Shown: piece by piece, positions 20,358 to 42,125 of the stretch | How the letters are laid out: each line of letters opens with the position of its first letter | How positions within the stretch are numbered: the first letter of the stretch is position 1 | NCBI GenBank assembly: GCA_001798595.1 | Contig: MGSS01000154.1 | Span: 23,169-68,287 of the forward strand | Direction of reading: 5' to 3' | Source of the DNA: Deltaproteobacteria bacterium RIFCSPLOWO2_12_FULL_60_19 | GTDB lineage: Bacteria > Desulfobacterota > Binatia > UBA9968 | Length of the DNA: 45,119 nucleotides | Position numbers and translations under genes: made by a program | Notes under the pieces: model-generated | The model's database searches: none | What the model saw: the letters and a program-made list of their open reading frames with translations, nothing else | Told to the model about the DNA's origin: nothing

Positions 20358-20427
20358 AACGTTTCTCCTTTCCCGGAATCTCTTTCCAAGTCGCGCGAGA
20401 GATGTCGTGACTTCCTCAGAAAAGCGG

Positions 20428-20443: not shown

Positions 20444-20589
20444 GAAAGCGGCTGAGAAATAGGGGCTGTGGATCAGGTTTGAGTCTCGGTAATCCGAGAA
20501 TTGGGAATTCGAAGCGAGGTTCTTCCTGGTTTTGAGAAGAGCGTCGCAATTAAATCCTCCTTTTGCCTGGGCAATAGCTGGCATTCTAT

Positions 20590-21820: not shown

Positions 21821-21915
21821 TTCGTGATCGTGTTCGCCCTTCGACCTTGCTCAGGGCCATGAGCTTGTCGAATGGTGGCCCGTGATCGTTGAAGACTGGA
21901 AAGTAGAGGAAGCAA
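21821..21915. repeat. Short dispersed repeats between bcrC and bcrB
   Basis: TTCGTGATCGTGTTCG (21821-21836) recurs in the badH-amidohydrolase gap at 25763-25815, and CCCTTCGACCTTGCTCAGGG with GAGCTTGTCGAA is the same dispersed palindromic word as near 19765. The 95-bp gap has no gene. Confidence 0.6.
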
Positions 21916-23217: not shown

Positions 23218-24047
23218 TTTACGCTGCGGGCATCGACGTCGGCTCCACCCAGACCAAAGGCATCATCCTCAACCAGGACCGGGAGATCGTCGCGCGGGCG
23301 CTGATCATGACCGGCGCCAATGTAACCCGGGCCGGGGTGAACTGCTTCAACGAGGCGTTGAAGCTGGCCGGCCTCGAGCGGGAACAGGTCGCCTACATCG
23401 TCGGCACCGGCTACGGGCGCTACAAAGTTACCTTCGGTGACGCGCAGATCACCGAGATCAGCTGCCACGCGCGCGGCGCGAGCTTCCTCTTTCCCAACAC
23501 CCGCACCGTCATCGACATGGGCGGGCAGGACGCCAAGGGAATCCACATAGGAGCGGACGGAGACGTGAAGGACTTCGTCATGAACGACAAATGCGCGGCC
23601 GGCACGGGACGATTCCTGGGCAGCGCCGCCGAGGCGCTCCTGCTCGATCTCGACGATCTCGGCCCGCTCGCGCTGAAGGCCAAGAATCCGGTCCGGCTCA
23701 CCACGGTCTGCACCGTCTTCGTCGAGTCGGACATCATGTCCTACCTCGCGCAAAACAAAAAAGTCGAGGACATTCTCGGCGGAGTGCATAGCGCCATCGC
23801 CGCCCGGACCATCTCGCTGGTGCGGCGGGTGGGCATCGAGCCGGAGGTGACTTTCACCGGCGGCGTATCGCGCAACATCGGCATGGTGCAGGCGTTGGAG
23901 GCAAAGCTTGGAATGAAGGTCAATGTCAGCCCGGATTCTCACTATGTAGGCGCGCTGGGAGCGGCGATCTTCGCGCTTGAACGCGCGGTCACGGCGATAG
24001 GCGAGAGAGAGAAGACGGCCGGGGTTGAGGCGGGGCCTCACGCCTAG
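23214..24047 (+). CDS. bcrA: Benzoyl-CoA reductase ATPase subunit A (BcrA/BadF)
   Basis: 277 residues of the BadF/BcrA/HgdC ATPase family (actin/HSP70-like fold). The phosphate motif [11 protein letters not shown] (6-16), the adenosine region TFTGGVSRN, and DMGGQDAKG are present. Cys127 in [11 protein letters not shown] and Cys166 in [11 protein letters not shown] occupy the two ligand positions of the [4Fe-4S] cluster that bridges the ATPase dimer, the same numbers as in HgdC of Acidaminococcus. Together with BcrD it uses ATP to push ferredoxin electrons to the BcrBC module, two ATP per two electrons in characterised enzymes. The start overlaps the bcrB stop by 4 bp. Confidence 0.95.
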
Positions 24048-24082
24048 CGCCTTCTGCCTATTGCCTATTTGAAGGAGGATTC

Positions 24083-24922
24083 ATGATTTTCGCAGCCGGC
24101 ATCGATATGGGCGCCAAATTGACCAAGGCCGTTATCCTGGACGGCGAGCGCCGGGTTGTCGCGAAGAGCTCCGTGCGGACCCGCCCCGACTTTGCGGCGA
24201 TCGCCCAGGAGGTCTTGGATCTGGCGCTGCAGCAGGCGGGGCTGAAACAGACCGATGTGAACTATATTGCCACGACGGGTTTCGGCCGCTACAATGTCCC
24301 GTTTCGCGACATTCAGATCACCGATATCACCTGCGTCGCGCGGGGAGCGGTGTTTCTGTTTCCCAAGACCCGTTGCGTCCTCGATATCGGCGCGCAGAGC
24401 ACGCGGGCGCTCAGGATTTCGGAGACCGGCAAGGTGCTGGAGTTCCGCACCAACGACAAATGCGCCGCCGGCGCCGGCGGCTTTATCGAGCGGGCCGCCA
24501 AATATTTGGAAGTTACGATCGAGCAGGTGGGCGACCTGTCGATGCAAGCCGACAAGCCTCAGACCATCAGCAGCGTCTGCGCGGTTTTGGCCGAGTCGGA
24601 GATCATCAATCACGTTTCCGCCGGGGAAAGCGTAGAAAATATTCTGCGCGGCGTCCACATCTCGCTCGCCTCCCGCGCCCTGGCGCTGCTCAAGCGCGCC
24701 GGGCTCGAAGAGGAAGTGACCTTCGTCGGCGGCGTGGCGCATCAGAAAGGAATGGTCAAGGCGCTGGAGGAGACGCTGAAAAAGAAAGTGAACGTCAGCG
24801 ACCAACCGGAGATGGTCGGCGCGCTGGGGGCGGCGCTGCTGGCGCTAAAGCGGTTGGAGAAGGTGCGACTGGAGAGACCAGGGACGACGCAAGCAGGCGA
24901 ACTCAGCGCGGCGGCGAGTTAA
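24083..24922 (+). CDS. bcrD: Benzoyl-CoA reductase ATPase subunit D (BcrD/BadG)
   Basis: 279 residues, paralogous to BcrA over its whole length. GIDMGAKLTKA replaces the GSTxTKG form of BcrA, as expected for the second, more divergent ATPase subunit. Cys127 (NDKCAAGAGGF) and Cys166 (SSVCAVLAESE) give the other half of the bridging [4Fe-4S] cluster; the BcrA GGQDAKG loop reads GAQSTRA here. ATG 24083 is preceded by GAAGGAGG. Having two different ATPase subunits is the Bcr/Bad hallmark and argues against a simple 2-hydroxyglutaryl-CoA dehydratase activator, which is a homodimer. A 59-bp gap with phased 10-bp repeats follows. Confidence 0.94.
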   Translation: MIFAAGIDMGAKLTKAVILDGERRVVAKSSVRTRPDFAAIAQEVLDLALQQAGLKQTDVNYIATTGFGRYNVPFRDIQITDITCVARGAVFLFPKTRCVLDIGAQSTRALRISETGKVLEFRTNDKCAAGAGGFIERAAKYLEVTIEQVGDLSMQADKPQTISSVCAVLAESEIINHVSAGESVENILRGVHISLASRALALLKRAGLEEEVTFVGGVAHQKGMVKALEETLKKKVNVSDQPEMVGALGAALLALKRLEKVRLERPGTTQAGELSAAAS

Positions 24923-24936
24923 CAGGGGATCGAAGG

Positions 24937-24970
24937 GTTCAATATAGTTCAATGTAGTTCAAAGTTGTTT
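24937..24970. repeat. 10-bp phased GTTCAA repeats
   Basis: GTTC recurs at 24937, 24947 and 24957, with GTTT at 24967, exactly 10 bp apart, in the gap between bcrD and the dehydrogenase. The same unit and period occur at 32033-32075. One helical turn per unit would put all copies on one DNA face. Confidence 0.75.
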
Positions 24971-24981
24971 GGGAGGTGAAG

Positions 24982-25752: not shown

Positions 25753-25762
25753 AAAGTAAAAA

Positions 25763-25815
25763 CCGTGTTCGTGATCGTGGGGGCGTGTTCGTCACGAGCA
25801 CGAACACGATCACGG
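25763..25815. repeat. Inverted/tandem GTGTTCGTGATC repeat
   Basis: CGTGATCGTG (25770-25779) can pair with CACGATCACG (25805-25814), and CGTGTTCGT with ACGAACACG forms a competing inner stem. The words are the same as at 21821-21836. It fills the gap before the amidohydrolase gene and could act as an mRNA processing or pausing hairpin. Confidence 0.65.
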
Positions 25816-25834
25816 GAACGGAGAGGAGGAAAGG

Positions 25835-26686: not shown

Positions 26687-26729
26687 GTTGTCCCGCGCTG
26701 GAAGGCATCGAAACAAACTCACAGGCGCT

Positions 26730-29192: not shown

Positions 29193-29208
29193 GCACAGAA
29201 GGCAGTAG

Positions 29209-29228
29209 GGGCGTGATTCATCACGCCC
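29209..29228. repeat. Perfect hairpin GGGCGTGA-TTCA-TCACGCCC
   Basis: Eight-base-pair stem with a TTCA loop after the isocitrate lyase gene. A second copy at 35802-35821 has a C in place of T in the left arm and the matching G for A in the right arm, a compensatory change, and both are preceded by GTAG. It is a dispersed palindromic element, possibly a transcript 3'-end or processing signal. Confidence 0.75.
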
Positions 29229-29266
29229 AGGGAGGCAGAAGGCAGGAGCGTGGAGAAGGAGGACGA

Positions 29267-29920
29267 GTGGCTACGGCAGAAGAGCGAGTCTTAGATTCGA
29301 AGAATCGGCACATGGAATTTACCGTCACCGGCCGGCTCGTGACGGCGCGCCCGCGGGAAGCGACGGACAAAAACGAAGTTAGAGGATCGAGGATAGAAGA
29401 TCGCGTGGCTCCGTCCGCCTCGGAGCTATGCGCGCCGGAAATTCTGGCTATCGAGGAGGTCGCGGGACAGGTTATCGACGGGATCGACAGTAAGGCGATC
29501 CTCAACCGCATGGCGGACATCGGGCCGGAGGCGCGCCTGTTTCTATACCGCCCTCAAGGGAATGTGGCCCGCGCGGAGGTCTTCGAGGACCCGCGCATCT
29601 GCCCGGAGATCAACCGCGGCGCGGTGATCGAGAATCTGAAAGAAAAGCCGAAAGACGTTAGCGGCTGGCGCACGCATGATTTTATCATCGACACCAAGGG
29701 GTGTCTCGGCGACGAGTGCGGCCGCTGCGCCGTGATGTGCCCGGAGAACGCGATTCATCTGATGGGCAAGGGAAAGGGAAGCTTTCACGAGATCGATCCG
29801 CTCGCCTGCAAGGGCTGCTACATCTGCTGGGTGGAGTGCTACCGCACGGCGGCCGACTGCATCCTGGTGGACGGCAAGACTTTCGACGCGGCGATGCGGG
29901 CGAAACATTTTGGGGAATGA
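29267..29920 (+). CDS. 2-oxoacid:ferredoxin oxidoreductase delta (2x[4Fe-4S]) subunit with N-terminal extension
   Basis: 217 residues from GTG 29267, chosen for the GGAGAAGGAGG site 4-10 bp upstream; the longer frame to 29213 begins inside the hairpin repeat. The C-terminal third is a two-cluster ferredoxin domain: Cys-x4-Cys-x2-Cys-x3-Cys-Pro (CLGDECGRCAVMCP) and Cys-x2-Cys-x2-Cys-x3-Cys (CKGCYICWVEC). Delta subunits of pyruvate-type oxidoreductases pass electrons from the thiamine site to soluble ferredoxin. The first motif has two extra residues between the first cysteines. The N-terminal 130 residues are unlike the short PorD proteins and I do not recognise them. The next two genes encode the alpha-gamma and beta subunits, so the role is secure by context. 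Confidence 0.85.
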   Translation: MATAEERVLDSKNRHMEFTVTGRLVTARPREATDKNEVRGSRIEDRVAPSASELCAPEILAIEEVAGQVIDGIDSKAILNRMADIGPEARLFLYRPQGNVARAEVFEDPRICPEINRGAVIENLKEKPKDVSGWRTHDFIIDTKGCLGDECGRCAVMCPENAIHLMGKGKGSFHEIDPLACKGCYICWVECYRTAADCILVDGKTFDAAMRAKHFGE

Positions 29921-29930
29921 CGATAACATC

Positions 29931-30020
29931 GCAAAATGAAAACTGCAAAATGCAAATTGCAAAATTGTCCGGACTCTCTTCCGCTTTGCATTTTTCAATT
30001 TGCACTTTGCATTTTGCATT
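29931..30020. repeat. Long imperfect inverted repeat of TGCAAAA words
   Basis: The left arm (29944-29967, TGCAAAATGCAAATTGCAAA plus ATTG) and the right arm (29997-30019, CAATTTGCACTTTGCATTTTGCA) pair over about 23 positions around a 29-nt loop. The words match the GCATTTT array at 1981. It lies between the delta and alpha-gamma subunit genes and would form a stable mRNA stem just before the next ribosome site at 30027. Confidence 0.8.
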
Positions 30021-30038
30021 GACCTTGGAGGTGTAAGC

Positions 30039-32027
30039 GTGGCAACGGTCTTATCCGGCAATAGCGCGGCGGCATGGGGATTCAGGCTTTCTCGCGTCCA
30101 ATGTTATCCCTACTATCCGATCACGCCGTCCACCGCCTGCTCCGAGCAGATCGCGCGCTGGGTTTCCGACGGCGCGCTGGAGACGGTGACGATCAACGCC
30201 GAATCGGAGCACAGCGCCGCGAGCCAGATTATCGCCGCGGGGAAAAGCGTGCGCGCCGGCACGGCCACGTCCTCCAAGGGCCTGCTCTACATGATCGAGG
30301 TGATGGAGAACGCCTCGGGCGGCAGCATCCCCTGCGGCTTTTTCATCGGCAACCGCGCGACCGGCGCTCCGATCAACATCTGGGCCGACAACTCCGACGC
30401 CTACGCGATGCGCGACAGCGGCGCGATCCAGATTTTTACCGCGGACGCCCAGGAGGCGCTGGACGGCGTCATCCAGGGTTATCGGATCGCGGAAGACTTG
30501 AGAGTAAGACTCCCGTTCGCCGTGAATCTCAGAGGCTTCACCGGGACGCACGCCTATGAGGGCGTAGAGATCCCCAAGCCGGAGGAGGTCGATCGCTTCC
30601 TGCCCGGCTACGTTTCCACCATGCCCCTCTTCGCGCCGGCCAAGCCGGTGACCTATGGGGCGATGCTCTCGGCTCTTCCATACAGGCGGCACAAGAGAAA
30701 CCAGATGGCCGCGCTGAAGAACGCGGTCGAGATAACGCAAGAGATTGGGCGGGAATTCGGCGAGCGCTTCGGCAGGAGTTACGGCCTCTTTGACTGGATC
30801 GGCGATCAGAAAGCCAAGCTCGTCGTCGCTCTGCTGGGTGAATCGGCGGGCGCCGGCGAAGTCGTCGTGCGCCATCTCCAGGGGAAACAGGGCATCCCCG
30901 GCGTCGCGCTGTTAAAGATCCGCCTCTTCTCTCCTTTCCCGGCGAGGGAGATCAGCCGGGCGCTCGCAGCCGCCGGAACCAAGGCCGTGGTCGTGCTCGA
31001 CGAAGGGCTGAATCACGGCGGCGTCTTTCCGCCGCTCGCGCAGCGTATCGCAACCGCCGTTCAACTCCACCTCGGGAGCCACGCGCCAAAAGTGGCGAGC
31101 GTCATCGGCGGCCTCGGCGGCAGCGAGGTGAGACAAGAGCACTTTCAGCTCATGTTCAACCTGGCCGACAACATCGCCGAGGGCAAAGCCTCTCGCGCCG
31201 AGCCCTACTGGCTCGACATCGACGAGGATCCGATCTTTGTGGAGAACGAGAATCAGGTAAATCCGAAGCTCTGGAAAAAATGGGGCGAGGTGTGGAAGCA
31301 GCAAAAGCGCAAGGAAAAATATTTCTCCCCGCTACCGCAGGAGACCGACGAGGTCCGCATCTACAGCCGGGCTGGGCAGGGCGCGATTACCTCCGCCGTC
31401 GGGTTTACCGGAGCGGGCATCCTGGCGGGCCGGCAGCTTCTGACCGTGCCGGCGTTCGGCTCCGAGAGGCGCGGCGCGATCATCACGACCGACACGCTGG
31501 TCCACGGCGGCGGCGGGCAGAAGATCCGCTCGTTCAACCGGACCTGGGACGTGATGGTTCTCTACGACGACACGATCCTCTATTCGCCCGAGCATCAGGC
31601 GCTCGACGGGCTCAAGGAGAGCGGGGCGCTTTTGATCAACAGCTCACGCCTCACGGTGAAGAAGCTCCGCGAGCAATTAGGCGCGGGCAAAGCGAACGTC
31701 CGCGTCTTTACGGTCCCGGCGGCGGAGATCGCGGAGCGGCTGGGGCTCAAGCACATCAACATGGCGATGCTCGGCGCGCTCCACCGGGTCTACGAGAAGA
31801 TCCCGCTGGAAAAGGCGCTGCCCTATTACGAAAGGCACGTTCCCAAGCCGAGGGATCTGAGCCTGGAGGCGATCCGTCTCGGCTACGCGGAGTGCACGGA
31901 TCAAGGCGCGAAAAAGCGCTTGAAAGAAGTCCGGCTGCCGGTGACGGAAGAATTTCTCGCCTGGCGGCCCGAAGATCACTCGCAGATCGCCTGGCCGTCG
32001 GAGATCGAAGAGATTAGAGCCGGATGA
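30039..32027 (+). CDS. 2-oxoacid:ferredoxin oxidoreductase, fused alpha-gamma subunit
   Basis: 662 residues from GTG 30039 after GGAGGTG. Residues 1-190 are the pyrimidine-binding alpha domain I (YPYYPITPSTACSEQIARW, ESEHSAASQIIAAG, TATSSKGLLYMIEVMENA); 260-390 is alpha domain II (LGESAGAGEVVV, VLDEGLNHGG, IGGLGGSEV); 430-600 is the gamma domain (YSRAGQGAITSAVGFTGAGI, PAFGSERRG, TDTLVHGGGGQKIRSF). The enzyme oxidatively decarboxylates a 2-oxoacid with CoA and thiamine diphosphate, giving acyl-CoA, CO2 and reduced ferredoxin in the cytoplasm. The pyruvate-type beta subunit that follows favours pyruvate or a close relative, but the substrate is not fixed by sequence. Reduced ferredoxin is the electron donor that benzoyl-CoA reductase needs. 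Confidence 0.9.
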   Translation: MATVLSGNSAAAWGFRLSRVQCYPYYPITPSTACSEQIARWVSDGALETVTINAESEHSAASQIIAAGKSVRAGTATSSKGLLYMIEVMENASGGSIPCGFFIGNRATGAPINIWADNSDAYAMRDSGAIQIFTADAQEALDGVIQGYRIAEDLRVRLPFAVNLRGFTGTHAYEGVEIPKPEEVDRFLPGYVSTMPLFAPAKPVTYGAMLSALPYRRHKRNQMAALKNAVEITQEIGREFGERFGRSYGLFDWIGDQKAKLVVALLGESAGAGEVVVRHLQGKQGIPGVALLKIRLFSPFPAREISRALAAAGTKAVVVLDEGLNHGGVFPPLAQRIATAVQLHLGSHAPKVASVIGGLGGSEVRQEHFQLMFNLADNIAEGKASRAEPYWLDIDEDPIFVENENQVNPKLWKKWGEVWKQQKRKEKYFSPLPQETDEVRIYSRAGQGAITSAVGFTGAGILAGRQLLTVPAFGSERRGAIITTDTLVHGGGGQKIRSFNRTWDVMVLYDDTILYSPEHQALDGLKESGALLINSSRLTVKKLREQLGAGKANVRVFTVPAAEIAERLGLKHINMAMLGALHRVYEKIPLEKALPYYERHVPKPRDLSLEAIRLGYAECTDQGAKKRLKEVRLPVTEEFLAWRPEDHSQIAWPSEIEEIRAG

Positions 32028-32032
32028 AGACC

Positions 32033-32075
32033 GTTCAACATGGTTCAAAATGGTTCAAGGTTGTTCAAATTGTTC
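32033..32075. repeat. 10-bp tandem GTTCAA repeats
   Basis: GTTCAA starts at 32033, 32043, 32053 and 32063, with GTTCGA at 32072; units such as TGGTTCAAAA and TGGTTCAAGG are 10 bp long. Same family as 24937-24970. It occupies the gap before the beta-subunit gene. Confidence 0.8.
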
Positions 32076-32120
32076 GACGCAATTTAGGGCGTGCATGAGT
32101 TGAAGATATGAGAGGCCTGC

Positions 32121-33170
32121 ATGTTTAACATTCTTTACAACCGCGACATCGGCATCAATCTGCACAGTTTTCTCCTGCCCGAGCCGGTCAAAGACGTCGG
32201 AGAGTACGGGGCGATCCCGACGACCGGCCTCACTTCCGGCCACCAGGGCTGCACGGGCTGCGGCATGGTCACCGGAACGAACCAGGCGCTGCGCGCGCTG
32301 AAACTCATGGGAAAGCACGTCGTCGCGAGCATCGGAACGGGCTGCAACGAGGTCATCACGACGCAGAATACCTCCTGCTGGGGCGAAACTTCCGTCGACC
32401 ACAACAATTTTCCCAACACGGGCGCGACACTGAGCGGAAACATTGCGGCGCTTAAAGCGCTGAGCCGCGCCGGCGCGGTCTCGCCGGAGCGCTTCGTCAA
32501 CCTGGGCATCGCAGGCGACGGCGGGACCTACGACATCGGCCTCCAGGCGTTGCTCGCCTGGATCGCTCGCGGCGAAGACGGCATCTATATCTGTCTCAAC
32601 AACCAGGCCTACATGAACACCGGCATTCAGGGCTCCGGCGCGACGCCCTACGGAGCGAATACGTCAACGACGCCGTTCGGCAAGGTGGTCCACGGCAACC
32701 AGAGAAGCCCGCAGTATCTGCCGGACCTGGCGCTGGCCGCGGGCGCTTCCTACGTCGCCACCGCCTGCCCGCTGCATCACCGCGACTTGATGATCAAAGT
32801 GCAAAAGGCGGCGGCGATCGAAGGGCCGTGCGTGATCGAGCTCTATTCGGTCTGTCCCGAGGGCTGGAAGAGCGAGACCGACGTTTTTCACGAGATCACC
32901 GAGTTGGCGCTCGACAGCCGCTTCTGGGTTCTGTACGAGGGCGAGCGCGACCGCGCGGGCAACAACGTCCTCTTCACCTTGAACTACCTGCCGAAGCGGC
33001 CGGTCTCGGCGCTAGAGTACCTCAATCTGCAAGAGCGTTTCTCCGGCATGAGGCAGCTGGGCGACATGGTCGAACATGCTCAGGCGCTGGTCGACGCGCG
33101 CTGGTCGTTCTGGAAGCCGGTGCTCGAAGCGAACGGGTTGGAGCGGAAAGAGGTGGGCTATGAGGCATGA
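32121..33170 (+). CDS. 2-oxoacid:ferredoxin oxidoreductase beta subunit (PorB-like)
   Basis: 349 residues. Thiamine diphosphate-binding half of the enzyme: GHQGCTGCGM with the cluster-ligand cysteines, SIGTGCNEV, GIAGDGGTYDIGLQALL (metal/ThDP motif) and NNQAYMNTGIQGSGATPYGA, the last being typical of pyruvate-type beta subunits. ATG 32121 follows GAGAGGCC. It is separated from the alpha-gamma gene by 93 bp holding 10-bp repeats, and its end overlaps the next gene (33160) by 11 bp, which couples it to a second oxidoreductase of a different type. Confidence 0.92.
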   Translation: MFNILYNRDIGINLHSFLLPEPVKDVGEYGAIPTTGLTSGHQGCTGCGMVTGTNQALRALKLMGKHVVASIGTGCNEVITTQNTSCWGETSVDHNNFPNTGATLSGNIAALKALSRAGAVSPERFVNLGIAGDGGTYDIGLQALLAWIARGEDGIYICLNNQAYMNTGIQGSGATPYGANTSTTPFGKVVHGNQRSPQYLPDLALAAGASYVATACPLHHRDLMIKVQKAAAIEGPCVIELYSVCPEGWKSETDVFHEITELALDSRFWVLYEGERDRAGNNVLFTLNYLPKRPVSALEYLNLQERFSGMRQLGDMVEHAQALVDARWSFWKPVLEANGLERKEVGYEA

Positions 33171-34926
33171 TCTGGTCATCCGCGTCGCCGGAGAATCGGG
33201 CGAAGGAATTATCACCATCGGCGAGACCATCGCCCGCATCGCCGCGCGCGAGGGTCTCTCCATCGTCACCTTCCGCACCTTTCCCGCCGAGATCAAAGGC
33301 GGGGCCTGCATGATCCAGGTCCGCGTGAGCGACGGAAAGATCTCGTATCACGGAGAAAAGATCGATTTCCTGGTCTGCCTCAATCAGGACGCGCTGAATG
33401 AAAATTACGGGGATCTCCACGAGCTCGGCGCGCTGCTGTGCGAGGCGGAGTGCGACCTGCCGGAAGAAAAATCGCCCCGGACGGTCTATCGAGTGCCTTT
33501 CGAGCGGATCGCCGTGCGCGAGATCGGCAGCCGCATCAGCAAGAACATCGTCGTCCTCGGGACGCTCTCCCAGCTCCTGGATATTCCGGTGAAGAGCATC
33601 GAGGCCTTTCTGGCGGAGAAATTCGCCAAGAAGAGCAAGGCGATTCTCGATCACAACATCGACGCGCTCCAGCGAGGCATCCGCTTCGCGCGGGAGAAGC
33701 TCGGCGGAACGTCCGGCTTCAAGTACCCGAGCGGCAAAGGCGATCGCCGGCTGCTCATGACGGGCAACGAAGCGATCGCCCTTGGCGCGGCGGGGGCGGG
33801 ACTTAAAACTTTTTTCGGCTATCCGATCACGCCGGCCTCCGAGATTATGGAATGGCTGGCGGTCCATCTGCCCAAAATGGGCGGCAAAGTGTTGCAAACC
33901 GAAGATGAGATCTCGGCGATCTGCGCGGTGGCCGGCGCCTCGTGGGCCGGCGCCAAGGCGATGACTTCGACTTCCGGGCCGGGCCTCTCGCTCATGTCCG
34001 AGACGCTGGGGCTGCTCTCGATGGCGGAGATTCCGGCGGTGATCGTGGACTCACAGCGCGGCGGGCCGAGCACGGGCATGCCGACCAAGACCGAGCAGTC
34101 GGATCTATTGCTTGCGCTCTACGGTTCTCACGGCGACTCCCCGCGCGCCGTGCTCGCGCCGACTTCCGTCGGCGATTGTTTTCAACTAACCGGGCTCGCT
34201 TTCGACCTGGCGGAGAAGTACCAGTTGCCGGTGATCATGCTCGTGGACCAGGCGCTATCGGCGCGGCTTGAGACGGTCGATCCGGAACTGGTCAAGCAAC
34301 CGCCGGCCGTCACTCGCTTGAGCGTCCAGCCCGGCGCGGACGGCGGCTACGTGCGTTACCGTCTTAACGAATCCGGCATCTCTCCGGTCGCGCTTCCCGG
34401 CACCGCAGGCGGTGAGCACATGGTGACCGGCATGGAGCACGACGAACTCGGAAACTTCGCCTGCGACGAAGAGACGCATACGGCGATGACGGTGAAACGA
34501 TACCGCAAGCTCCAGATGATCGGGAACGATCCGTTGACGCGGGGGCTCTCGCTCCACTTCGGCGACGAGAAGGCCGAGATCGGCATCGTCACCTGGGGCT
34601 CGACGGCCGGCCCGGCCGAAGACGCCGTGCGCCTGGCGGCGAGCATGGGCATTGCCGTTCAGGCCATCGTGCCGAAGATCCTCAATCCGCTGCCGCACGA
34701 GGAGCTGAAACGTTTCTTCGCGCGGGTGAAACACATCATCGTCCCGGAGCTAAATTTCACGGGCCAGCTCGCTTCGCTGTTGCGGTCCACCTACCGCGTT
34801 CCGACGATCAGCCTCACCAAAATCAAGGGCGTTCCGCTGGAGCCGTCGGAGATCGTCGACAAGATCATCGAAGCCCAAGAGAGTCTAAGCGTAAGGAGTG
34901 AAAAGCGCTATGGAAGAGCAGGATAA
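33160..34926 (+). CDS. korA: 2-oxoacid:acceptor oxidoreductase, fused gamma-alpha subunit (KorA-like)
   Basis: 588 residues from ATG 33160. The gamma domain comes first (residues 1-180: IRVAGESGEGIITIGETIAR, FRTFPAEIKGGACMIQVR) and the alpha domains follow (about 190-580: LMTGNEAIALGAAGAG, FFGYPITPASEIMEWL, SGPGLSLMSETLGL, DSQRGGPSTGMPTKTEQSD). This gamma-alpha order is the KorA form; the neighbouring alpha-gamma protein has the reverse order. In Thauera, 2-oxoglutarate:ferredoxin oxidoreductase (KorAB) reduces the ferredoxin used by benzoyl-CoA reductase and its genes lie beside bcr; the same role fits here. Start overlaps PorB by 11 bp and the end overlaps korB by 17 bp, so translation is coupled. 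The 2-oxoglutarate preference is inferred from family and context. Confidence 0.92.
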   Translation: MRHDLVIRVAGESGEGIITIGETIARIAAREGLSIVTFRTFPAEIKGGACMIQVRVSDGKISYHGEKIDFLVCLNQDALNENYGDLHELGALLCEAECDLPEEKSPRTVYRVPFERIAVREIGSRISKNIVVLGTLSQLLDIPVKSIEAFLAEKFAKKSKAILDHNIDALQRGIRFAREKLGGTSGFKYPSGKGDRRLLMTGNEAIALGAAGAGLKTFFGYPITPASEIMEWLAVHLPKMGGKVLQTEDEISAICAVAGASWAGAKAMTSTSGPGLSLMSETLGLLSMAEIPAVIVDSQRGGPSTGMPTKTEQSDLLLALYGSHGDSPRAVLAPTSVGDCFQLTGLAFDLAEKYQLPVIMLVDQALSARLETVDPELVKQPPAVTRLSVQPGADGGYVRYRLNESGISPVALPGTAGGEHMVTGMEHDELGNFACDEETHTAMTVKRYRKLQMIGNDPLTRGLSLHFGDEKAEIGIVTWGSTAGPAEDAVRLAASMGIAVQAIVPKILNPLPHEELKRFFARVKHIIVPELNFTGQLASLLRSTYRVPTISLTKIKGVPLEPSEIVDKIIEAQESLSVRSEKRYGRAG

Positions 34927-35764
34927 ATTTTGCGAATACCTGAGCGGCGTCTCCCCGGTGTGGTGCCCCGGCTGCGGCAATTACGGCATCCTCTCCTCGC
35001 TGGTCGAAGCCCTGGGAGAGATCGATCTCGCGACCAAGGACATCGCGCTCATCTCGGGCATCGGCTGCGCCAGCCGCCTCCCTTACTTCGTCAAGGCCTA
35101 CGGCTTTCATGGGATCCACGGCCGGACGCTGCCCATCGCGCAGGGCGTCAAGGTGGCGAACCCGGAGCTGACCGTGGTCGCGGTCGCAGGCGACGGAGAC
35201 GGCCTGGCGATCGGCGGCGGCCATCTGCCGCACCTCGCGCGCAACAACACGGACCTGACCTATTTGATGTTCAATAACGCGATCTATGGAATGACCAAAG
35301 GGCAATTCTCGCCGACCACCGCGCTTTCATCGATCACGAAGACAACGCCGTTCGGGCTGTTCGGCGAACCCACGCATCCCACCGCGCTGGCCATCGTCTA
35401 TGGCGCAACGTTCGTCGCGCGGGGCTTTTCGGTGAAGAAGGAGCAGCTTAAGGACCTCATCATCCAGGGAATTCACCATCGCGGCTTCTCTTTCATCGAG
35501 ATCCTGACGAGCTGCTCGTCGTTCAACACGACGGACATGAACGTCGCGCGCATCATCAAGCGTTTGGAGCCGGTGCCTGCAAGTCACAACGTGGAGGATA
35601 AGGTCGAGGCGCTACGCCTGGCGACCGATGAGGAGAAGATCTATCATGGGATTTTCCAGCGCGTCGAGCGCCCAACGTTGGAGGATAGACTTCAAGAAGT
35701 CGAAAAGGCGGCGAAGAAGAATGGCGCGCGGCAATTTGAGGCGCTGCTGGGGCAGTTTCAATAG
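34910..35764 (+). CDS. korB: 2-oxoacid:acceptor oxidoreductase beta subunit (KorB-like)
   Basis: 284 residues from ATG 34910, downstream of AAGGAG; an in-frame GTG at 34898 overlaps that site. KorB features: WCPGCGNYGILSSL, SGIGCASRLPYF, the ThDP motif AGDGDGLAIGGGH, NNAIYGMTKGQFSPTT and the SCSSFNT segment near 210. It binds thiamine diphosphate and one [4Fe-4S] cluster and pairs with the preceding KorA. No separate ferredoxin gene of the 2-cluster soluble type is seen next to it, so the carrier may be encoded elsewhere or be the delta-type protein upstream. Confidence 0.93.
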   Translation: MEEQDKFCEYLSGVSPVWCPGCGNYGILSSLVEALGEIDLATKDIALISGIGCASRLPYFVKAYGFHGIHGRTLPIAQGVKVANPELTVVAVAGDGDGLAIGGGHLPHLARNNTDLTYLMFNNAIYGMTKGQFSPTTALSSITKTTPFGLFGEPTHPTALAIVYGATFVARGFSVKKEQLKDLIIQGIHHRGFSFIEILTSCSSFNTTDMNVARIIKRLEPVPASHNVEDKVEALRLATDEEKIYHGIFQRVERPTLEDRLQEVEKAAKKNGARQFEALLGQFQ

Positions 35765-35861: not shown

Positions 35862-36641
35862 ATGTTTAAGAATCTGATTGTGAGCAAAGAGGGCGGCATT
35901 GCGACGGTTCAGCTCAACCGGCCGCAGAAAAAGAACTCGCTGAATACCGAGGTGCGTCGGGAGCTGGAAGCGGCGTTCCGCGAGATCGGCGAAGACAGCG
36001 GCGTCAGGGCCGTGATCGTCACGGGCGGCGACGAGATATTTTGCGCCGGCGCCGACATCGGCGAGATCCAGGAGGCCAAGTCGGCGAAAGCCTCGTACCA
36101 GCACGCGCGGGAATTTCAGACCCTCTTCGACCAGGTGGAGGCGCTGCCGCAGCCGGTGGTCGGCGCGGTTTCCGGCTATGCGCTGGGCGGCGGTTGCGAG
36201 CTGGCGCTGGCGTGCGATTTTCGCATCGCCTCGGAGACGGCGAAGTTCGGCCTGCCGGAGATCAAGATCGGCGCGTTTCCGGCCGGCGGCGGAACGCAGC
36301 GGCTGCCGCGACTCATCGGCGCGGCGCGGGCCAAAGAGATGATCTTTTTCGGCGATCCGATCGGCGCGAACGAAGCGCTGGCTTGCGGCTTGGTGAGCAA
36401 AGTGGTGGCGAAAGAAAAATTGCTGGCGGAGGCCAAGGCCTTTGCAACCAAGCTGGCCGCGCAGCCGCGCCTTGCGCTGGAAACGGCGAAGAAGCTCATC
36501 AACCGCGGGCCGGAGATGGATATCGGCGCGGCGCTGGAGCTTGAGGCGTGCGGCCTTGGAACTCTGGCCGGCACGCACGACTTGCACGAAGGGACGCTCG
36601 CCTTTTTGGAAAAGCGCAAGCCGAACTTTACCGGCACGTGA
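35862..36641 (+). CDS. Enoyl-CoA hydratase (crotonase family), BadK-like candidate
   Basis: 259 residues, standard crotonase length. Oxyanion-hole region CAGADIGEI near 63-71, both catalytic glutamates in GGGCELALACDF and FGLPEIKIGAFPAGGGTQRLPR. ATG 35862 follows GAGGTGAGGAGG. It hydrates an enoyl-CoA in the cytoplasm. With BcrCBAD and a BadH-like dehydrogenase in the same run, cyclohex-1-ene-1-carboxyl-CoA hydratase (BadK) or the dienoyl-CoA hydratase of the Thauera-type route is the likely role; an ordinary beta-oxidation hydratase for the later dicarboxyl-CoA chain is equally open from sequence alone. It is too short for the ring-opening 6-oxocyclohex-1-ene-1-carbonyl-CoA hydrolase (about 370 residues). 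Confidence 0.88.
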   Translation: MFKNLIVSKEGGIATVQLNRPQKKNSLNTEVRRELEAAFREIGEDSGVRAVIVTGGDEIFCAGADIGEIQEAKSAKASYQHAREFQTLFDQVEALPQPVVGAVSGYALGGGCELALACDFRIASETAKFGLPEIKIGAFPAGGGTQRLPRLIGAARAKEMIFFGDPIGANEALACGLVSKVVAKEKLLAEAKAFATKLAAQPRLALETAKKLINRGPEMDIGAALELEACGLGTLAGTHDLHEGTLAFLEKRKPNFTGT

Positions 36642-36688: not shown

Positions 36689-37783
36689 ATGGCGAAGATT
36701 TCTACGTTCGACGACTGGACCGATCTTTTTAAGAAATGGCAGCAGGATATCGGCGTCGACACCACTCTATTCAAGGACTATCCGTTCGAGGCGTTCTACG
36801 ACGAGCCTGCGGCGGCGGAAGTTGAGTTCGGGGAATTCGCGGGGCGGAGAAAATGGGAGTCGCTGTTGGAGATTCCCAACCAGGAGATGCGCGACTCGCT
36901 GATGCACCTGATCGTTTATCAGGGCGACACGGAGTTCGCCTCCTCGGAGCAACAGCGCCGCCTGATCGACACGCCGCCCTCGCCGCACGATCTCAAGTGC
37001 CTGCTCCGCGTCATGCGCGAGGAGATGCGCCACGGCTGGCAGATGTGCCACATCCTGGTCAACCACTTCGGCTCTTCCGGCAAGCTTGAAGCGGCCAAGC
37101 TGCTCGAACGGAGGGCGTATAAGGGCCAGCGGCTGCTCGGGGCCTTCAACCAGCCGGTCAATCACTGGCTCGACTTCTTCGCCTATACCGCGTTCATCGA
37201 CCGCGACGGCAAGTTTCAGCTGACCATGCTGCACCACTCCGGCTTCAAGCCGCTCGCGGCGAGCATGGGGCCGATGCTGAAAGAGGAGTCGTTTCATCTG
37301 TTCACCGGCCAGAGCGGCTTGCAGCGGGTCATCAGGGCGGGGAAAGTTCCGACCGCGACGATCCAGAGATATCTCAATAAATGGATTCCCACGGCTTACG
37401 ACCTCTTCGGCAAGGACCACTCCAGCTCCGCGCTGAGATTCTACCGCTGGGGATTCAAGGGGAGGTTCGACGAGAATCCTTCCACCCAGCCGAAGGATCC
37501 CGAGCGGCTGAACGAGGAGGCGCGGACTCACTACGCCAATGAAGCCGGCGAGATTATCAACGGCCTCAACCAGATGATTCCCGAAGGGCAGCCCAAGCTC
37601 TATCTACCCGATGTCAAGTTCAACCGTCAGATCGGCGACTACGCCGGCAAGAACTACAGCGCGCAGGGCCAGCCGCTCGGCGTCGACGACTATCTCCTCC
37701 ATCTCAACGACGTGCTGCCCGGAGCGGCGGATGTCCAGACGCTTGAGGCCGTGTTTAAGGAAGGTAATTGGGTGGCGCAGTAG
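36689..37783 (+). CDS. BoxB-like di-iron epoxygenase (benzoyl-CoA 2,3-epoxidase family)
   Basis: 364 residues from ATG 36689 after GGAAGGAG. The central part matches BoxB closely: YQGDTEFASSEQQRR, EEMRHGWQMCHILVNHFG, LLGAFNQP, FIDRDGKFQLTML and KEESFHLFTGQSGLQRVI. All di-iron ligand positions are kept: Glu82, Glu112-x2-His115, an Asp at 171/173, and Glu200-x2-His203. BoxB adds oxygen to benzoyl-CoA in the aerobic box pathway with BoxA as reductase, then BoxC opens the ring. This protein is about 100 residues shorter than BoxB (about 475), mainly at the N-terminus, and neither boxA nor boxC is present. An oxygen-using enzyme four genes after a benzoyl-CoA reductase system is unusual. Its substrate could be benzoyl-CoA, another aryl-CoA or a reduced ring intermediate. 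Confidence 0.88.
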   Translation: MAKISTFDDWTDLFKKWQQDIGVDTTLFKDYPFEAFYDEPAAAEVEFGEFAGRRKWESLLEIPNQEMRDSLMHLIVYQGDTEFASSEQQRRLIDTPPSPHDLKCLLRVMREEMRHGWQMCHILVNHFGSSGKLEAAKLLERRAYKGQRLLGAFNQPVNHWLDFFAYTAFIDRDGKFQLTMLHHSGFKPLAASMGPMLKEESFHLFTGQSGLQRVIRAGKVPTATIQRYLNKWIPTAYDLFGKDHSSSALRFYRWGFKGRFDENPSTQPKDPERLNEEARTHYANEAGEIINGLNQMIPEGQPKLYLPDVKFNRQIGDYAGKNYSAQGQPLGVDDYLLHLNDVLPGAADVQTLEAVFKEGNWVAQ

Positions 37784-37827
37784 AGCCAGAAGGCAGCAGG
37801 CAGTAGACAAGAAATAAAACCAAGAAA

Positions 37828-37848
37828 CCCTCTCCCGCTGGGAGAGGG
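37828..37848. repeat. Perfect hairpin CCCTCTCCC-GCT-GGGAGAGGG
   Basis: Nine-base-pair stem with a 3-nt loop in the 86-bp gap between the BoxB-like and PaaA-like genes, followed by CAAGGGTGAGGG, which also supplies a ribosome site (GAGGGAGG) for the next gene. The same words occur upstream of glnE at 15894-15967. Confidence 0.8.
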
Positions 37849-37869
37849 CAAGGGTGAGGGAGGGATTTT

Positions 37870-38586
37870 ATGTTTACGGATAAAGTCGAGGCGAAAGATT
37901 TCGCGAAGATGGACCCGGAGTATCAGGATCTGTTGCGCAGGATTATCACCATTCAATCGGACTGTGAGATCGGCGGACCGCATCTCTACGTCGAAAAGAT
38001 GCTGCCCAACGCGCCGACCAAGCTCGATCAATTGTTGGTCGCGCGCACGGCGGCGGAGGAGGTCGATCACTACCGGAAGTTCGCCCGGCTCGCCGGCGAC
38101 ATCGGCGTGGATGTCTCATTTGTCCTCAGCCAGCCGAACCAGAAGCGCTACGTGGAAGCCTTCCGGGGGACGATCACGACCTGGGAGGACTTCGCGGTAT
38201 TCGGCTTCCTGATCGACCGGATCGGCCGCTACCAGCTGGAAGAATTTATCGGCTGCACCTACGCGCCGATCGAGCCGCTGCTCCCGGATATCATCAACGA
38301 AGAGCTGGGACACATCGACTACGGCGCGACCCAGACCACGGAACTATTGACCAAGGGGGATGAGTCGAGAGAGAAGGTCCAGAAGGCGATCGACACCTGG
38401 TACATCAAAGGCCTCGACATGTTCGGCCGCTCCGAATCCAGGCGCTCCGAGCGCTATTGTCACTGGGGAATCAAACGGCGCACCAACGCCCAGGCGAGAG
38501 ACGCTTACATGAAGGAGGTCGAGCCGCTCATCAAAGGGATGGGGCTGAAGGTGCCGGACCCGCTGAAGGGGAGGAAGTACCTGTAA
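37870..38586 (+). CDS. PaaA/PaaC-like ferritin-fold di-iron protein
   Basis: 238 residues, shorter than PaaA (about 310-330) and close to PaaC (about 250). Two complete ExxH motifs, AAEEVDHYRKFARL near 61-75 and INEELGHIDYG near 141-151, plus IQSDCEIGG and YQLEEFIGC, give the usual glutamate and histidine set for a di-iron centre in the phenylacetyl-CoA epoxidase / ribonucleotide-reductase-like superfamily. PaaC proteins have usually lost these ligands, so this one may be catalytic itself. It follows the BoxB-like gene by 86 bp and precedes a 63-residue protein, suggesting a multi-component oxygenase. No reductase (PaaE/BoxA type) lies nearby. It acts in the cytoplasm; the substrate is unknown. 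Confidence 0.85.
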   Translation: MFTDKVEAKDFAKMDPEYQDLLRRIITIQSDCEIGGPHLYVEKMLPNAPTKLDQLLVARTAAEEVDHYRKFARLAGDIGVDVSFVLSQPNQKRYVEAFRGTITTWEDFAVFGFLIDRIGRYQLEEFIGCTYAPIEPLLPDIINEELGHIDYGATQTTELLTKGDESREKVQKAIDTWYIKGLDMFGRSESRRSERYCHWGIKRRTNAQARDAYMKEVEPLIKGMGLKVPDPLKGRKYL

Positions 38587-38627
38587 GCAAAATGCAAGAA
38601 CACCTTAGTTGCTGATGGAGAAATAGA

Positions 38628-38819
38628 ATGGCGCAGACCGTAAATACCAAAGAAGTCGATGAATACTTGGAGCAAGTCGTGCAGGCGCTTCACCGGACCG
38701 TGCGGTATGCGATCCCGCACGTGAAGAAGGACGCGGAGATCGCCGACAAGGCGGTGAAGGACTGCGAAGAGATCCTGTCCGTCGTGATGGAAGGCAACGT
38801 CTCCGAATGGCTGAAATAA
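38628..38819 (+). CDS. Small conserved-looking protein, 63 residues
   Basis: ATG 38628 follows GGAGAAATAGA. The product is a charged helical protein (VDEYLEQVVQALHRTVRYA, then KKDAEIADKAVKDCEEILSVV) with one cysteine and no membrane segment. I do not recognise it. Its last 13 bp overlap the start of the cytochrome oxidase subunit II gene, giving translational coupling, and it sits 41 bp after the PaaA-like gene. By position it may be a small structural subunit or regulator of the di-iron proteins, as PaaB is for the phenylacetyl-CoA epoxidase, but no sequence similarity to PaaB is apparent. Confidence 0.7.
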   Translation: MAQTVNTKEVDEYLEQVVQALHRTVRYAIPHVKKDAEIADKAVKDCEEILSVVMEGNVSEWLK

Positions 38820-39484
38820 TATCCGGTTGGTTTCCGGAAAACGTTTCGTCGTTCGGGGGAGAGATCGATGCCCTCTTTCGTCTGATCCTTTATGTCACCG
38901 GGGCGTGGTTCATTCTGACCGAGGGGCTGATCCTGTTTTTCCTCCTGCGTTATCGGCGCCGGGAGGGCCGTCGCGCGGCCTATGTGGCGGGGGACAATCT
39001 CAGGCAACTCGCCTGGATTCTCGTGCCATGTCTGATTGTTCTGTTGCTCGATCTCTGGCTTGACTTTCGCGGGGCGGAGGTGTGGGCGAAGATCAAAGGC
39101 CAGGTTCCTCCCAGCGACTTCCACATCCAGGTGACCGGCAAACAGTTCAACTGGGAGATTCTCTACCCCGGTCCGGATAAAGAGTTTGGAACGGCGGATG
39201 ACGTTCTAATGGAGAACGAGTTGCACGTGCCCGCGAGCCGGGTCGTGCGGGTGATCCTCAAATCGAAGGATGTGATCCACAGTTTTTTCCTGCCCAACCT
39301 GCGCCTCAAGCAGGACGCAGTGCCGGGGCGCGCGATCACGGCCTGGTTCGAGGCGACCAAGCCGGGAAAATATCCGCTGCCCTGCGCCGAGCTTTGCGGC
39401 TTCGGCCACACGGGAATGAACGGCTGGCTTTTCGCGCACAGCCCGGAGGATTACGCAAAATGGGCGAAACAACAGTGGCCGTGA
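38807..39484 (+). CDS. coxB: Cytochrome c oxidase subunit II with CuA site
   Basis: 225 residues. Two transmembrane helices (LFRLILYVTGAWFILTEGLI and LAWILVPCLIVLLLDLWLDF) precede a periplasmic cupredoxin domain. The CuA ligands are complete: His in DVIHSFFLP, then CAELCGFGHTGM with Cys-x3-Cys-x3-His-x2-Met. It accepts electrons from cytochrome c and passes them to subunit I. There is no fused cytochrome c domain, unlike classical caa3. The ATG lies inside the end of the 63-residue gene. Genes for subunits I, III and IV follow directly; haem A synthesis and Cu assembly genes (ctaA, ctaB, ctaG, sco) are absent from the window. Confidence 0.94.
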   Translation: MAEIISGWFPENVSSFGGEIDALFRLILYVTGAWFILTEGLILFFLLRYRRREGRRAAYVAGDNLRQLAWILVPCLIVLLLDLWLDFRGAEVWAKIKGQVPPSDFHIQVTGKQFNWEILYPGPDKEFGTADDVLMENELHVPASRVVRVILKSKDVIHSFFLPNLRLKQDAVPGRAITAWFEATKPGKYPLPCAELCGFGHTGMNGWLFAHSPEDYAKWAKQQWP

Positions 39485-39522
39485 TTTAAAGCGGCGCATA
39501 GAGCAACTTCGCAGGATCGACG

Positions 39523-41235
39523 ATGAATTCCACTTCTCCGAACGCCGAGAGCGTAGCCCATGACGCGGAACCCGGTTTCTGGCGCGCTTACCTCTTTTCC
39601 ACCGACCATAAAAGGATCGCCAAGCAGTACCTTTCCGTAGCGCTCTTCTGGGCCGTGATGGGAGGTCTCACCGCCTACCTGATGCGCTGGCAGCTCGCCT
39701 ATCCCGACACCGAGGTCCCGGGGTGGGGATTTATCGCGCCGGATTTCTACAACATGCTGGTCACCATGCACGGCACGATCATGGTCTTCTTCGTCGCGAT
39801 GCCGATTCTCCTGGCGGCCTTCGGCAACTTTCTCATTCCGCTTATGATCGGCGCGCGAGACATGGCGTTTCCCCGCCTCAACATGCTTTCGTTCTGGGTT
39901 TTCGCCCTGGCGTCGCTCGTTTTGCTGACTTCGCTTTTTGTGCCCGGCGGCGCGGCTTCGGCCGGCTGGACGGGCTACCCGCCGCTTTCCGCCAAGCCCG
40001 AATACACGGGCGTCACCTGGGGCTTGAATCTGTGGCTCTTGGCCCTGGCGCTCGAATTCGCCTCGTTTCTCATGGGCGGGGTCAACTTCCTCACGACGGC
40101 GATCAACATGAGGGCGCCGGGCATGAGCTTCTTCCGCCTGCCGCTGCTCGTCTGGATGGAGCTCACGGCGGCGGTGATCTTCATGCTCTCCGTCGGGCCG
40201 CTCATCGCCGGGGCCGTGATGCTCCTCATGGACCGCGTCGTCGGCACCACTTTCTTTCTCCCGGAAGGCGGAGGGGAGCCGCTCCTGTGGCAACATCTCT
40301 TTTGGTTCTTCGGCCATCCTGAGGTTTACGTGATTCTCCTTCCCGGGTTTGGTTTAATCCTGGAGATCATCCCGGTCTTCAGCCGCAAGCCGATCTTCGG
40401 CTATCGCCCCATCATCTACTCGACGATCGTGGCGGGCGCGCTCAGCTTCGTCGTGTGGGCGCACCATCAGTTCCTGAGCGGGATGGATCCGCGGCTCGCC
40501 ATGCCCTTCAGCATCACCACGATCATCATCTCCGTTCCCTTCGCGCTCATCGTGTTTGCCATGATCGCCACGCTCTGGCGCGGCTCAATCACCTTTTCCA
40601 CGCCGATGCTCTTCGCCATGGGAACCCTTTCCGTTTTTATCTTCGGCGGCCTCACCGGCATCTTCAACGGTTCGGCCCCCGTCGATATCTACATCCACGA
40701 CACCTATTTCATCGTGGCTCATTTCCACTACACGCTCTTCAGCGCCGTTTTCTTCGCGGGATTCGCCGGACTCACCTACTGGTTTCCGAAGATGTTCGGC
40801 CGGATGATGAACGAGCAATTAGGCAAGCTCCATTTCTGGCTGACGTTTGTCTTCTTCAACGCCGTCTTTATTCCGATGCACGTTGTCGGCCTCGGGGGGA
40901 TGATGCGGCGGATCTCCGACCCGACCCAATATGAGTTTCTTAGGCCGCTTCAGCCGCTCAACCAATTCATCACCGTGGCGGCGATTCTGCTGTTGCTGTC
41001 GCAGTTGGTCTTCGTCGTCAATTTTTTTCGGAGCTTGATTTGCGGCAAAGTCGCCGAGAGAAATCCGTGGCAGGCCAACACGCTCGAATGGAGGGTTCCT
41101 TCGCCGCCGCCCCATGAGAACTTTGATGCGATCCCGGTCGTCTATCACGGCCCGTACGAGTACAACTCGTCCGAGGCTGCCGTTGACTGGCTGCCGCAAG
41201 ACCGCCGCGTGACCACGGGCGCGGCGACCAGATAG
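39523..41235 (+). CDS. coxA: Cytochrome c oxidase subunit I, K-channel residues replaced
   Basis: 570 residues with about 12 membrane helices. Metal ligands are complete: haem a histidine His83 in TMHGTIM, CuB ligands His265 (with cross-link Tyr269 in FFGHPEVYV), His314/His315 in VWAHHQF, and His400/His402 in VAHFHYT. The D-channel entry Asp113 (GARDMAFPRLN) and Glu267 are present, marking an A-family haem-copper oxidase. In the K-channel helix the usual VPTGIKIFSWIATMW pattern reads VPFALIVFAMIATLW, so Thr becomes Phe340 and Lys becomes Ile343. That would block the standard K pathway. The protein reduces O2 to water in the inner membrane. Its place behind di-iron genes in a benzoyl-CoA cluster is unusual. 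Confidence 0.95.
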   Translation: MNSTSPNAESVAHDAEPGFWRAYLFSTDHKRIAKQYLSVALFWAVMGGLTAYLMRWQLAYPDTEVPGWGFIAPDFYNMLVTMHGTIMVFFVAMPILLAAFGNFLIPLMIGARDMAFPRLNMLSFWVFALASLVLLTSLFVPGGAASAGWTGYPPLSAKPEYTGVTWGLNLWLLALALEFASFLMGGVNFLTTAINMRAPGMSFFRLPLLVWMELTAAVIFMLSVGPLIAGAVMLLMDRVVGTTFFLPEGGGEPLLWQHLFWFFGHPEVYVILLPGFGLILEIIPVFSRKPIFGYRPIIYSTIVAGALSFVVWAHHQFLSGMDPRLAMPFSITTIIISVPFALIVFAMIATLWRGSITFSTPMLFAMGTLSVFIFGGLTGIFNGSAPVDIYIHDTYFIVAHFHYTLFSAVFFAGFAGLTYWFPKMFGRMMNEQLGKLHFWLTFVFFNAVFIPMHVVGLGGMMRRISDPTQYEFLRPLQPLNQFITVAAILLLLSQLVFVVNFFRSLICGKVAERNPWQANTLEWRVPSPPPHENFDAIPVVYHGPYEYNSSEAAVDWLPQDRRVTTGAATR

Positions 41236-41249
41236 CGGGAGGGAATTCT

Positions 41250-41822
41250 TTGTCGATGGAAGCGCAGACTCTTACGTCGCAGACCCCCAGCGGCAAGATC
41301 GGGGTCTGGTGGTTTCTCGCCTCGGAGATTCCCGTATTCGGCGGGCTGATCGTCTCCTACATCGTCCTTCGCCTGGGCGGCGCCGGCTGGTCCGAGGCGT
41401 CGTCCCATTTGAACTTTAACTTCGCGCTCGCCAACACCTTCGTCCTCCTTACCAGCAGTCTCACTATGGTCCTCGCCTTTGCCGAAGTGGAGGCGGAACG
41501 GCCGCGGAGAGTTGGCAACTACCTTCTGCTGACAATTCTGCTGGGAGTTCTCTTTTTGGCCGTCAAGGGCTTCGAGTATGCCGGTGAGATCGGGAAAGGA
41601 TTCACGCCGGGGGCCGGCATCTTCTGGTCCTTTTACTACGGCATGACCGGCCTCCACGCCCTGCACGTGCTCGCAGGCATCGTCGTGAATCTGATTCTCT
41701 ACCTGCAGGCGCTGAGCGGCGCGCTCCAGCGTCACGGCCATCGCGTGGAGCTGGCCGGTCTCTACTGGCATTTTGTCGATGTCGTATGGATCTTTCTCTT
41801 TCCGCTGCTCTATCTAACTTAA
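41250..41822 (+). CDS. coxC: Cytochrome c oxidase subunit III (short, five-helix form)
   Basis: 190 residues; five hydrophobic helices, lacking the first two of the seven-helix form. Typical segments are GVWWFLASEIPVFGGLIVSY, ANTFVLLTSSLTMVLA, FYYGMTGLHALHVLAGIVVN and LYWHFVDVVWIFLFPLLYL. The frame begins with TTG at 41250, six bases after GGGAGGG; an ATG at 41256 is the alternative. It follows subunit I by 14 bp. Subunit III stabilises the oxidase and the D pathway in the membrane. Confidence 0.93.
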   Translation: MSMEAQTLTSQTPSGKIGVWWFLASEIPVFGGLIVSYIVLRLGGAGWSEASSHLNFNFALANTFVLLTSSLTMVLAFAEVEAERPRRVGNYLLLTILLGVLFLAVKGFEYAGEIGKGFTPGAGIFWSFYYGMTGLHALHVLAGIVVNLILYLQALSGALQRHGHRVELAGLYWHFVDVVWIFLFPLLYLT

Positions 41823-41831
41823 GGACTTGAA

Positions 41832-42125
41832 ATGACCGCGCGCGCGCGACACCCTAATTATTTTCTCGTTTGGCTGATGCTGGTCGGCCTGGTGATGGTC
41901 TCGGTCGCCGCCGGGACGGTTTTGTCGAAAACCGCCGCGCTGATCCTCATCTTTTCCGTGGCGACGGTCAAGGCGGCGCTGGTCATCCTGAACTACATGC
42001 ACCTCAAATATGAGAAGACGCTGATTTATGCCCTCGTGCTTATCCCTCTGGTCATCGTTATGGTCCTCATGTTCGCCTTATTTCCGGACTTCGTCTTCCA
42101 CGGCCACAACGGGAATGGAAGTTAG
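41832..42125 (+). CDS. Cytochrome c oxidase subunit IV-like membrane protein
   Basis: 97 residues with three predicted membrane helices (FLVWLMLVGLVMVSVAAGTV; ALILIFSVATVKAALVILNY; LIYALVLIPLVIVMVLMFAL) and the conserved KAALVILNYMHLKYE segment of prokaryotic subunit IV proteins. It starts 9 bp after subunit III. It closes the oxidase set II-I-III-IV. Function is structural; no cofactor residues. Confidence 0.88.
   Translation: MTARARHPNYFLVWLMLVGLVMVSVAAGTVLSKTAALILIFSVATVKAALVILNYMHLKYEKTLIYALVLIPLVIVMVLMFALFPDFVFHGHNGNGS

Follow-up and report, generated by a model that had tools for sequence, protein, structure and literature searches.

The 45,119-nucleotide stretch of DNA analysed here (the window), from Deltaproteobacteria bacterium RIFCSPLOWO2_12_FULL_60_19, encodes a compact BoxB-type di-iron protein, BL, which, judged by its sequence, is a member of a large family without the usual partners of BoxB. 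BL may be an O2-dependent aryl-CoA epoxidase of the BoxB type that draws its electrons from a donor other than BoxA, a reading to which we give about an even chance. In the window its gene stands beside those of a PaaA-like di-iron protein (AL) and a 63-residue protein (s63), a trio located between a benzoyl-CoA-reductase/KorAB cluster and the cytochrome c oxidase genes coxBACD (Table 1).

Gene content of the window

Table 1. Genes of the trio and its surroundings, numbered from the first letter of the window.
Feature	Position	Strand	Match or context
BL, compact BoxB-type di-iron protein, 364 aa	36689..37783	+	TIGR03225, 216.5 bits
AL, PaaA-like di-iron protein, 238 aa	37870..38586	+	TIGR02156, 82.9 bits
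s63, 63-residue partner protein of AL	38628..38819	+	directly 3' of AL in relatives
Enoyl-CoA hydratase family protein	35862..36641	+	PF00378, 250 bits
KorAB-like 2-oxoacid:ferredoxin oxidoreductase	33151..35764	+	TIGR03710 and TIGR02177, both above cut-off
4Fe-4S protein and PorAB-like 2-oxoacid oxidoreductase	29213..33170	+
Class I benzoyl-CoA-reductase-like BcrC, B, A, D	20666..24922	+	TIGR02263, TIGR02260, TIGR02259, TIGR02261 (best or near-best, below cut-off)
Cytochrome c oxidase coxB-A-C-D	38807..42125	+	PF00116 and PF00115 for coxB and coxA

The enoyl-CoA hydratase gene, orthologues of which occupy the equivalent place in the reductase/Kor operons of relatives, ends 47 nt upstream of BL, and gaps of 86 and 41 nt separate BL from AL and AL from s63. 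The 3' end of s63 overlaps the start of coxB (ATG at 38807), so that translational coupling, if there is any, would be to coxB and not to the PaaA-like gene with which an earlier note on this DNA had paired it. No family matched s63 above cut-off. The three genes are not chance open reading frames, as every ligand of the di-iron site is invariant in 92 BL homologues. The trio is directly followed by a complete coxBACD operon (coxC and coxD assigned from their position and from matches in relatives); a Rieske oxygenase and a protein of the nitroreductase family are also encoded downstream.

The upstream genes were best matched by the BcrC, B, A, D and KorAB models of a class I benzoyl-CoA reductase cluster (bcrCBAD plus KorAB), and a BadH-like dehydrogenase accompanies the benzoyl-CoA-reductase-like set. 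The window differs from such a cluster in that the Bcr matches, though best or near-best, remained below cut-off (e.g. BcrC, 357 against 421 bits), in its two PorAB/KorAB sets and in the presence of coxBACD downstream. Both sets of 2-oxoacid:ferredoxin oxidoreductase genes, the PorAB-like and the KorAB-like (within 20666-35764), recur in relatives, e.g. at loci L224 and L230. The window also holds an isocitrate lyase homologue (26730-29192) and, upstream of the reductase cluster, two UbiD-family decarboxylase genes (2022-3440 and 7196-8821, - strand), one above and the other below the TIGR00148 cut-off, with a molybdopterin oxidoreductase gene (3418-6036) beside them. Genes for small ferritin/rubrerythrin-like proteins lie divergent to the reductase genes in the window (19836-20549, - strand) and in relatives (L224:13179-14227, L232:5545-6585 and L223:6636-7223); the L224 copy matches Pfam Rubrerythrin and the window copy matches no Pfam family.

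Orthologous reductase clusters occurred without BL in at least 14 relatives, several of them on contigs that end early, and in three relatives AL was divergent beside the reductase genes. A window-type BL directly precedes coxBACD at locus L240, the AL-s63 pair directly follows coxD at L144, and at L235 ctaB-like and cox genes come after a reductase/Kor cluster. Within the lineage of the window, the reductase cluster and the BL, AL and cox genes thus recombine with one another. Such recombination is in keeping with a function where oxic and anoxic conditions meet and is compatible with either an assimilatory oxygenase or protection from O2.

The BL family and true BoxB

Although its match to the BoxB model spans most of the protein, the score of BL falls far below the cut-off of 499.1 bits; both BL and AL exceed the threshold for Pfam PF05138. 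The alignment with 3PER follows the residue numbering of the BoxB mechanism paper (PMC5489048), from which the roles of the pocket residues were taken, so that positions could be mapped directly. The six BoxB ligands (Glu120, Glu150, His153, Asp211, Glu240 and His243) correspond to E82, E112, H115, D171, E200 and H203 of the window BL and were present in 92/92 BL proteins. Equivalents of Gln116, Thr119, Ser123 and Phe193 (BoxB numbering) were likewise invariant (92/92), and that of Phe203 was kept in 89 of the 92, the window copy included. Phe206 is replaced by Tyr in 86 of the 92 (Tyr in the window), and Thr210, which adjoins the selectivity-determining peptide, by Val, Ile or Met in 91 (Ile in the window), leaving the window BL with five of the seven residues of the benzoyl-CoA pocket.

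An AlphaFold2 model of BL (mean pLDDT 94.3) superposed on BoxB over 357 of its 364 residues (Z 44, 1.9 Å) and scored lower against SSO1313 (Z 25) and PaaA (Z 22). Taken together with the pocket residues, the superposition indicates a compact BoxB-like fold in which most of the pocket is kept, as opposed to a reduced fragment. Compared with the benzoyl-CoA 2,3-epoxidase BoxB of Azoarcus evansii (PDB 3PM5/3Q1G; ~473 residues), with which it shares the fold, the six ligands and five pocket residues, BL is ~110 residues shorter, close to the ~100 of the earlier note, and takes a separate position in the tree.

In the IQ-TREE phylogeny, true BoxB (nine proteins, some from the host's own class) formed one clade with a long stem (100/100) that excludes BL. 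BL and BoxB were joined at 100/99, and the window BL clustered with L034 and L035 outside BoxB (100/100). Monophyly of BL beside BoxB gave an AU p of 0.161, and BL may therefore form either a clade beside BoxB or a grade around it; the tree rules out an offshoot nested within BoxB. Scanning a single genome for each species recovered 334 relatives, the best 80 of which came from Acidobacteria, Deltaproteobacteria/Binatia, Methylomirabilota/NC10, Eremiobacterota, Planctomycetota, Gemmatimonadaceae and others; most BL-bearing organisms are represented by draft metagenome assemblies only. No description of the BL family was found in the literature covered, which takes in few subscription papers, so that an earlier description is possible.

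The host genome (a draft, 97% complete) contains no BoxA or BoxC above cut-off, no match to PaaB in a family-model search and a best PaaE match of 19 bits against a cut-off of 420.8. BoxA and BoxC above cut-off were likewise not found in 11 BL genomes from the genome scan or in the relatives of the host, the sole exception being a distant genome (G369) with both BoxC and true BoxB (L196), a recovery showing that the search works. With BL outside BoxB, and BoxA, BoxC, PaaB and PaaE not found, the genes match neither the box operon nor the paa operon, in line with the earlier note; a true BoxB with its partners elsewhere is ruled out by the tree and by the lack of BoxA and BoxC above cut-off in the host.

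Gene neighbourhoods of BL and AL

Neighbours within a 9 kb radius were surveyed at 93 non-redundant BL loci, many of them interrupted by contig ends, so that all counts are lower bounds. Enoyl-CoA hydratases were the most frequent (at least 50/93), with NuoE-like (at least 25) and NuoF-like proteins (at least 24), aldehyde dehydrogenases (at least 24), 3-hydroxyacyl-CoA dehydrogenases (at least 19) and homologues of the 4-hydroxybenzoyl-CoA reductase alpha subunit (at least 18); all five of the latter that were tested exceeded the curated cut-off (1016.8 to 1037.1 against 994.55 bits). Loci of the Acidobacteriota combine enoyl-CoA hydratases, aldehyde dehydrogenase and 4-hydroxybenzoyl-CoA reductase, a setting that supports a substrate of the benzoyl-CoA type. 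Some acidobacterial clusters (L077:6234-20126; L082) also have a CoA-transferase-family pair (PF01144) around BL, which we take to resemble ring-opening hydrolases of the IpdAB kind.

Within the Binatia the order amrS, ptsI, BL, NuoE-like, NuoF-like recurs, including on host contig C103, where a second BL gene, 58% identical to that of the window, is followed by the NuoE/NuoF-like genes. In the NuoF-like protein FMN, SLBB and 4Fe-4S domains were identified, and in the NuoE-like protein a 2Fe-2S thioredoxin-like domain, the anatomy that would be expected of an NADH-linked electron donor; because the genes are adjacent, the pair may be what reduces BL. The window BL has no adjacent NuoEF. The NuoEF-linked copies of the Binatia adjoin ptsI/amrS and heme-synthesis-like genes rather than aromatic genes; at three such loci (L022, L024 and L242) hemE/hemY-like genes were recognised by eye, with no aromatic genes nearby.

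AL carries a complete di-iron ligand set with both ExxH motifs, so that, as first noted, two different di-iron proteins with full ligand sets do lie side by side in the window. Its score against the PaaA model was 82.9 bits (cut-off, 280), and its AlphaFold2 model (pLDDT 91.5) matched PaaA and SSO1313 equally (Z 27). AL shares the fold and all di-iron ligands of PaaA from the phenylacetyl-CoA epoxidase PaaABCE (PDB 3PVR, 4IIT), and differs in the lysine bridge (Glu49 replaced by Tyr in 35/35 AL proteins and Lys68 by Thr in 32/35, both in the window), in a Gln at the position of BoxB Gln116, and in having s63 and no PaaB or PaaE partner above cut-off in the genome. It is not a degenerate PaaC-type subunit. 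SSO1313, a short PaaA-like protein of the PF05138 type from Sulfolobus solfataricus (PDB 4MUD; 23-25% identity), has to our knowledge no established function.

Almost every genome in the host's family has AL. Among 30 AL loci (≥63% identity), s63 was directly downstream in 25 and EtfB/EtfA came next in 15; every s63 homologue found adjoins an AL gene. A unit of AL, s63, EtfB and EtfA with a divergent nicotinate phosphoribosyltransferase gene occurs in the host and many relatives (e.g. L023:3543-6477; L029:8482-11314), and at L147:814-4157 the AL-s63 pair is followed by a gene that is qNOR-like by eye from its N-terminal sequence. Identity of s63 with PaaB is ruled out, as the host has no PaaB match and the s63 profile matched no haloarchaeal small protein at the loci examined. 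The best reading is that AL and s63 form a PaaA-type module separate from BL and often adjoining EtfBA.

The three genes had been proposed as a possible new two-component di-iron oxygenase; in such an enzyme BL would pair with AL in the manner of PaaA and PaaC, and s63 would be the effector. In the window the three lie next to one another, L046 has an uninterrupted series of enoyl-CoA hydratase, BL, NuoE, NuoF and AL, and both the BL and AL families are near-universal in the host's family. Against this, BL adjoins AL at 2/93 BL loci (the window and L046), with s63 in the window only; among the 30 AL loci BL was adjacent in the window only, the AL-s63 pair stood without BL in 24/24 other pair loci examined, and a clear AL homologue was present in 2/23 BL genomes from the genome scan (outside the host's family). 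BoxB, moreover, is active without a structural subunit (PMC4498308), and AL lacks the degeneracy of a PaaC-type subunit, leaving a joint complex very improbable. The surveys rule out the trio as a conserved unit, and its adjacency in the window is mostly a local arrangement.

Possible function of BL

The analysis shows the homology of BL, its di-iron ligands and pocket residues, its predicted fold, the contexts of the genes and the absence of BoxA and BoxC above cut-off; the substrate, product, electron donor, O2 dependence, co-transcription and regulation of BL are inferred. The substrate, benzoyl-CoA or a closely similar aryl-CoA thioester, would be bound via the conserved Gln116 equivalent, O2 activated at the Fe2 site and the ring epoxidised, with electrons from a donor other than BoxA, which in many relatives and at the host's paralogue locus would be a NuoE/NuoF-like NADH module; crotonase-family hydratases would process the epoxide without BoxC. 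In the window, BL would constitute an O2-dependent branch of the benzoyl-CoA-reductase cluster at the oxic-anoxic boundary, co-transcribed with coxBACD, and AL and s63 would have been recruited into the same gene run. The distance from the BoxB equivalog cut-off, the ~110 missing residues, the changes at Phe206 and Thr210, and the window BL without NuoEF alongside Binatia NuoEF-linked copies without aromatic genes all count against an epoxidase.

Two other readings start from the reductase cluster. BL, AL or both might use reductant to remove O2, perhaps sacrificing an aryl-CoA or dienoyl-CoA substrate in doing so, and thereby, with coxBACD, keep the oxygen-sensitive benzoyl-CoA reductase and ferredoxin enzymes working. 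The position of the trio between KorAB and coxBACD, the arrangements at L240 and L144, the qNOR-like neighbour of AL at L147, the divergent AL beside reductase genes in three relatives and the ferritin/rubrerythrin-like genes flanking the cluster in several relatives agree with such protection. It is nevertheless unlikely: neither BL nor AL occurs in most orthologous reductase clusters, most BL genes lie in CoA-thioester pathway clusters or beside NuoEF without benzoyl-CoA reductase, and a plain oxidase would not need the largely invariant aryl-CoA pocket. Less likely again is oxygenation of a partly reduced ring, such as the benzoyl-CoA-reductase product cyclohexa-1,5-diene-1-carbonyl-CoA, for which the window BL and L034 lie in the appropriate cluster, a hydratase beside acidobacterial BL genes has TIGR03189 (cyclohexa-1,5-dienecarbonyl-CoA hydratase) as its best, sub-cut-off match, and the pocket is altered (Thr210 to Val/Ile, Phe206 to Tyr). 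Against it, benzoyl-CoA reductase is missing from the vicinity of most BL genes, benzoyl-CoA is itself the product of 4-hydroxybenzoyl-CoA reductase, and the other residues that hold the benzoyl ring are nearly invariant. An aryl-CoA substrate is favoured over either a reduced ring or O2 consumption by the benzoyl-CoA pocket that BL keeps and by the neighbourhoods with 4-hydroxybenzoyl-CoA reductase.

More broadly, and with somewhat less than an even chance, BL may mark a third, undescribed route by which aromatic acids are processed aerobically as CoA thioesters, alongside the box and paa routes and with representatives in Acidobacteriota, Binatia, Methylomirabilota, Eremiobacterota and others. 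In such a route a NuoEF-type NADH module would replace BoxA, the roles of BoxC and BoxD would fall to single-domain crotonases, an aldehyde dehydrogenase and, in certain lineages, a pair from the CoA-transferase family, and benzoyl-CoA would come partly from 4-hydroxybenzoyl-CoA reductase; in the lineage of the window it would have been placed in an anaerobic benzoyl-CoA-reductase cluster. BL-type proteins are numerous in mostly uncultured soil and subsurface lineages, where annotation by similarity could call them BoxB despite the missing BoxA and BoxC. If BL is an aryl-CoA epoxidase with another reductase, metagenomic counts of benzoyl-CoA 2,3-epoxidase would pool two different systems and a major soil phylum would gain a candidate aerobic aromatic pathway. 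With BL in a benzoyl-CoA-reductase cluster that also carries a cytochrome oxidase, the combination of oxygen-sensitive aromatic reduction with O2 becomes directly testable.
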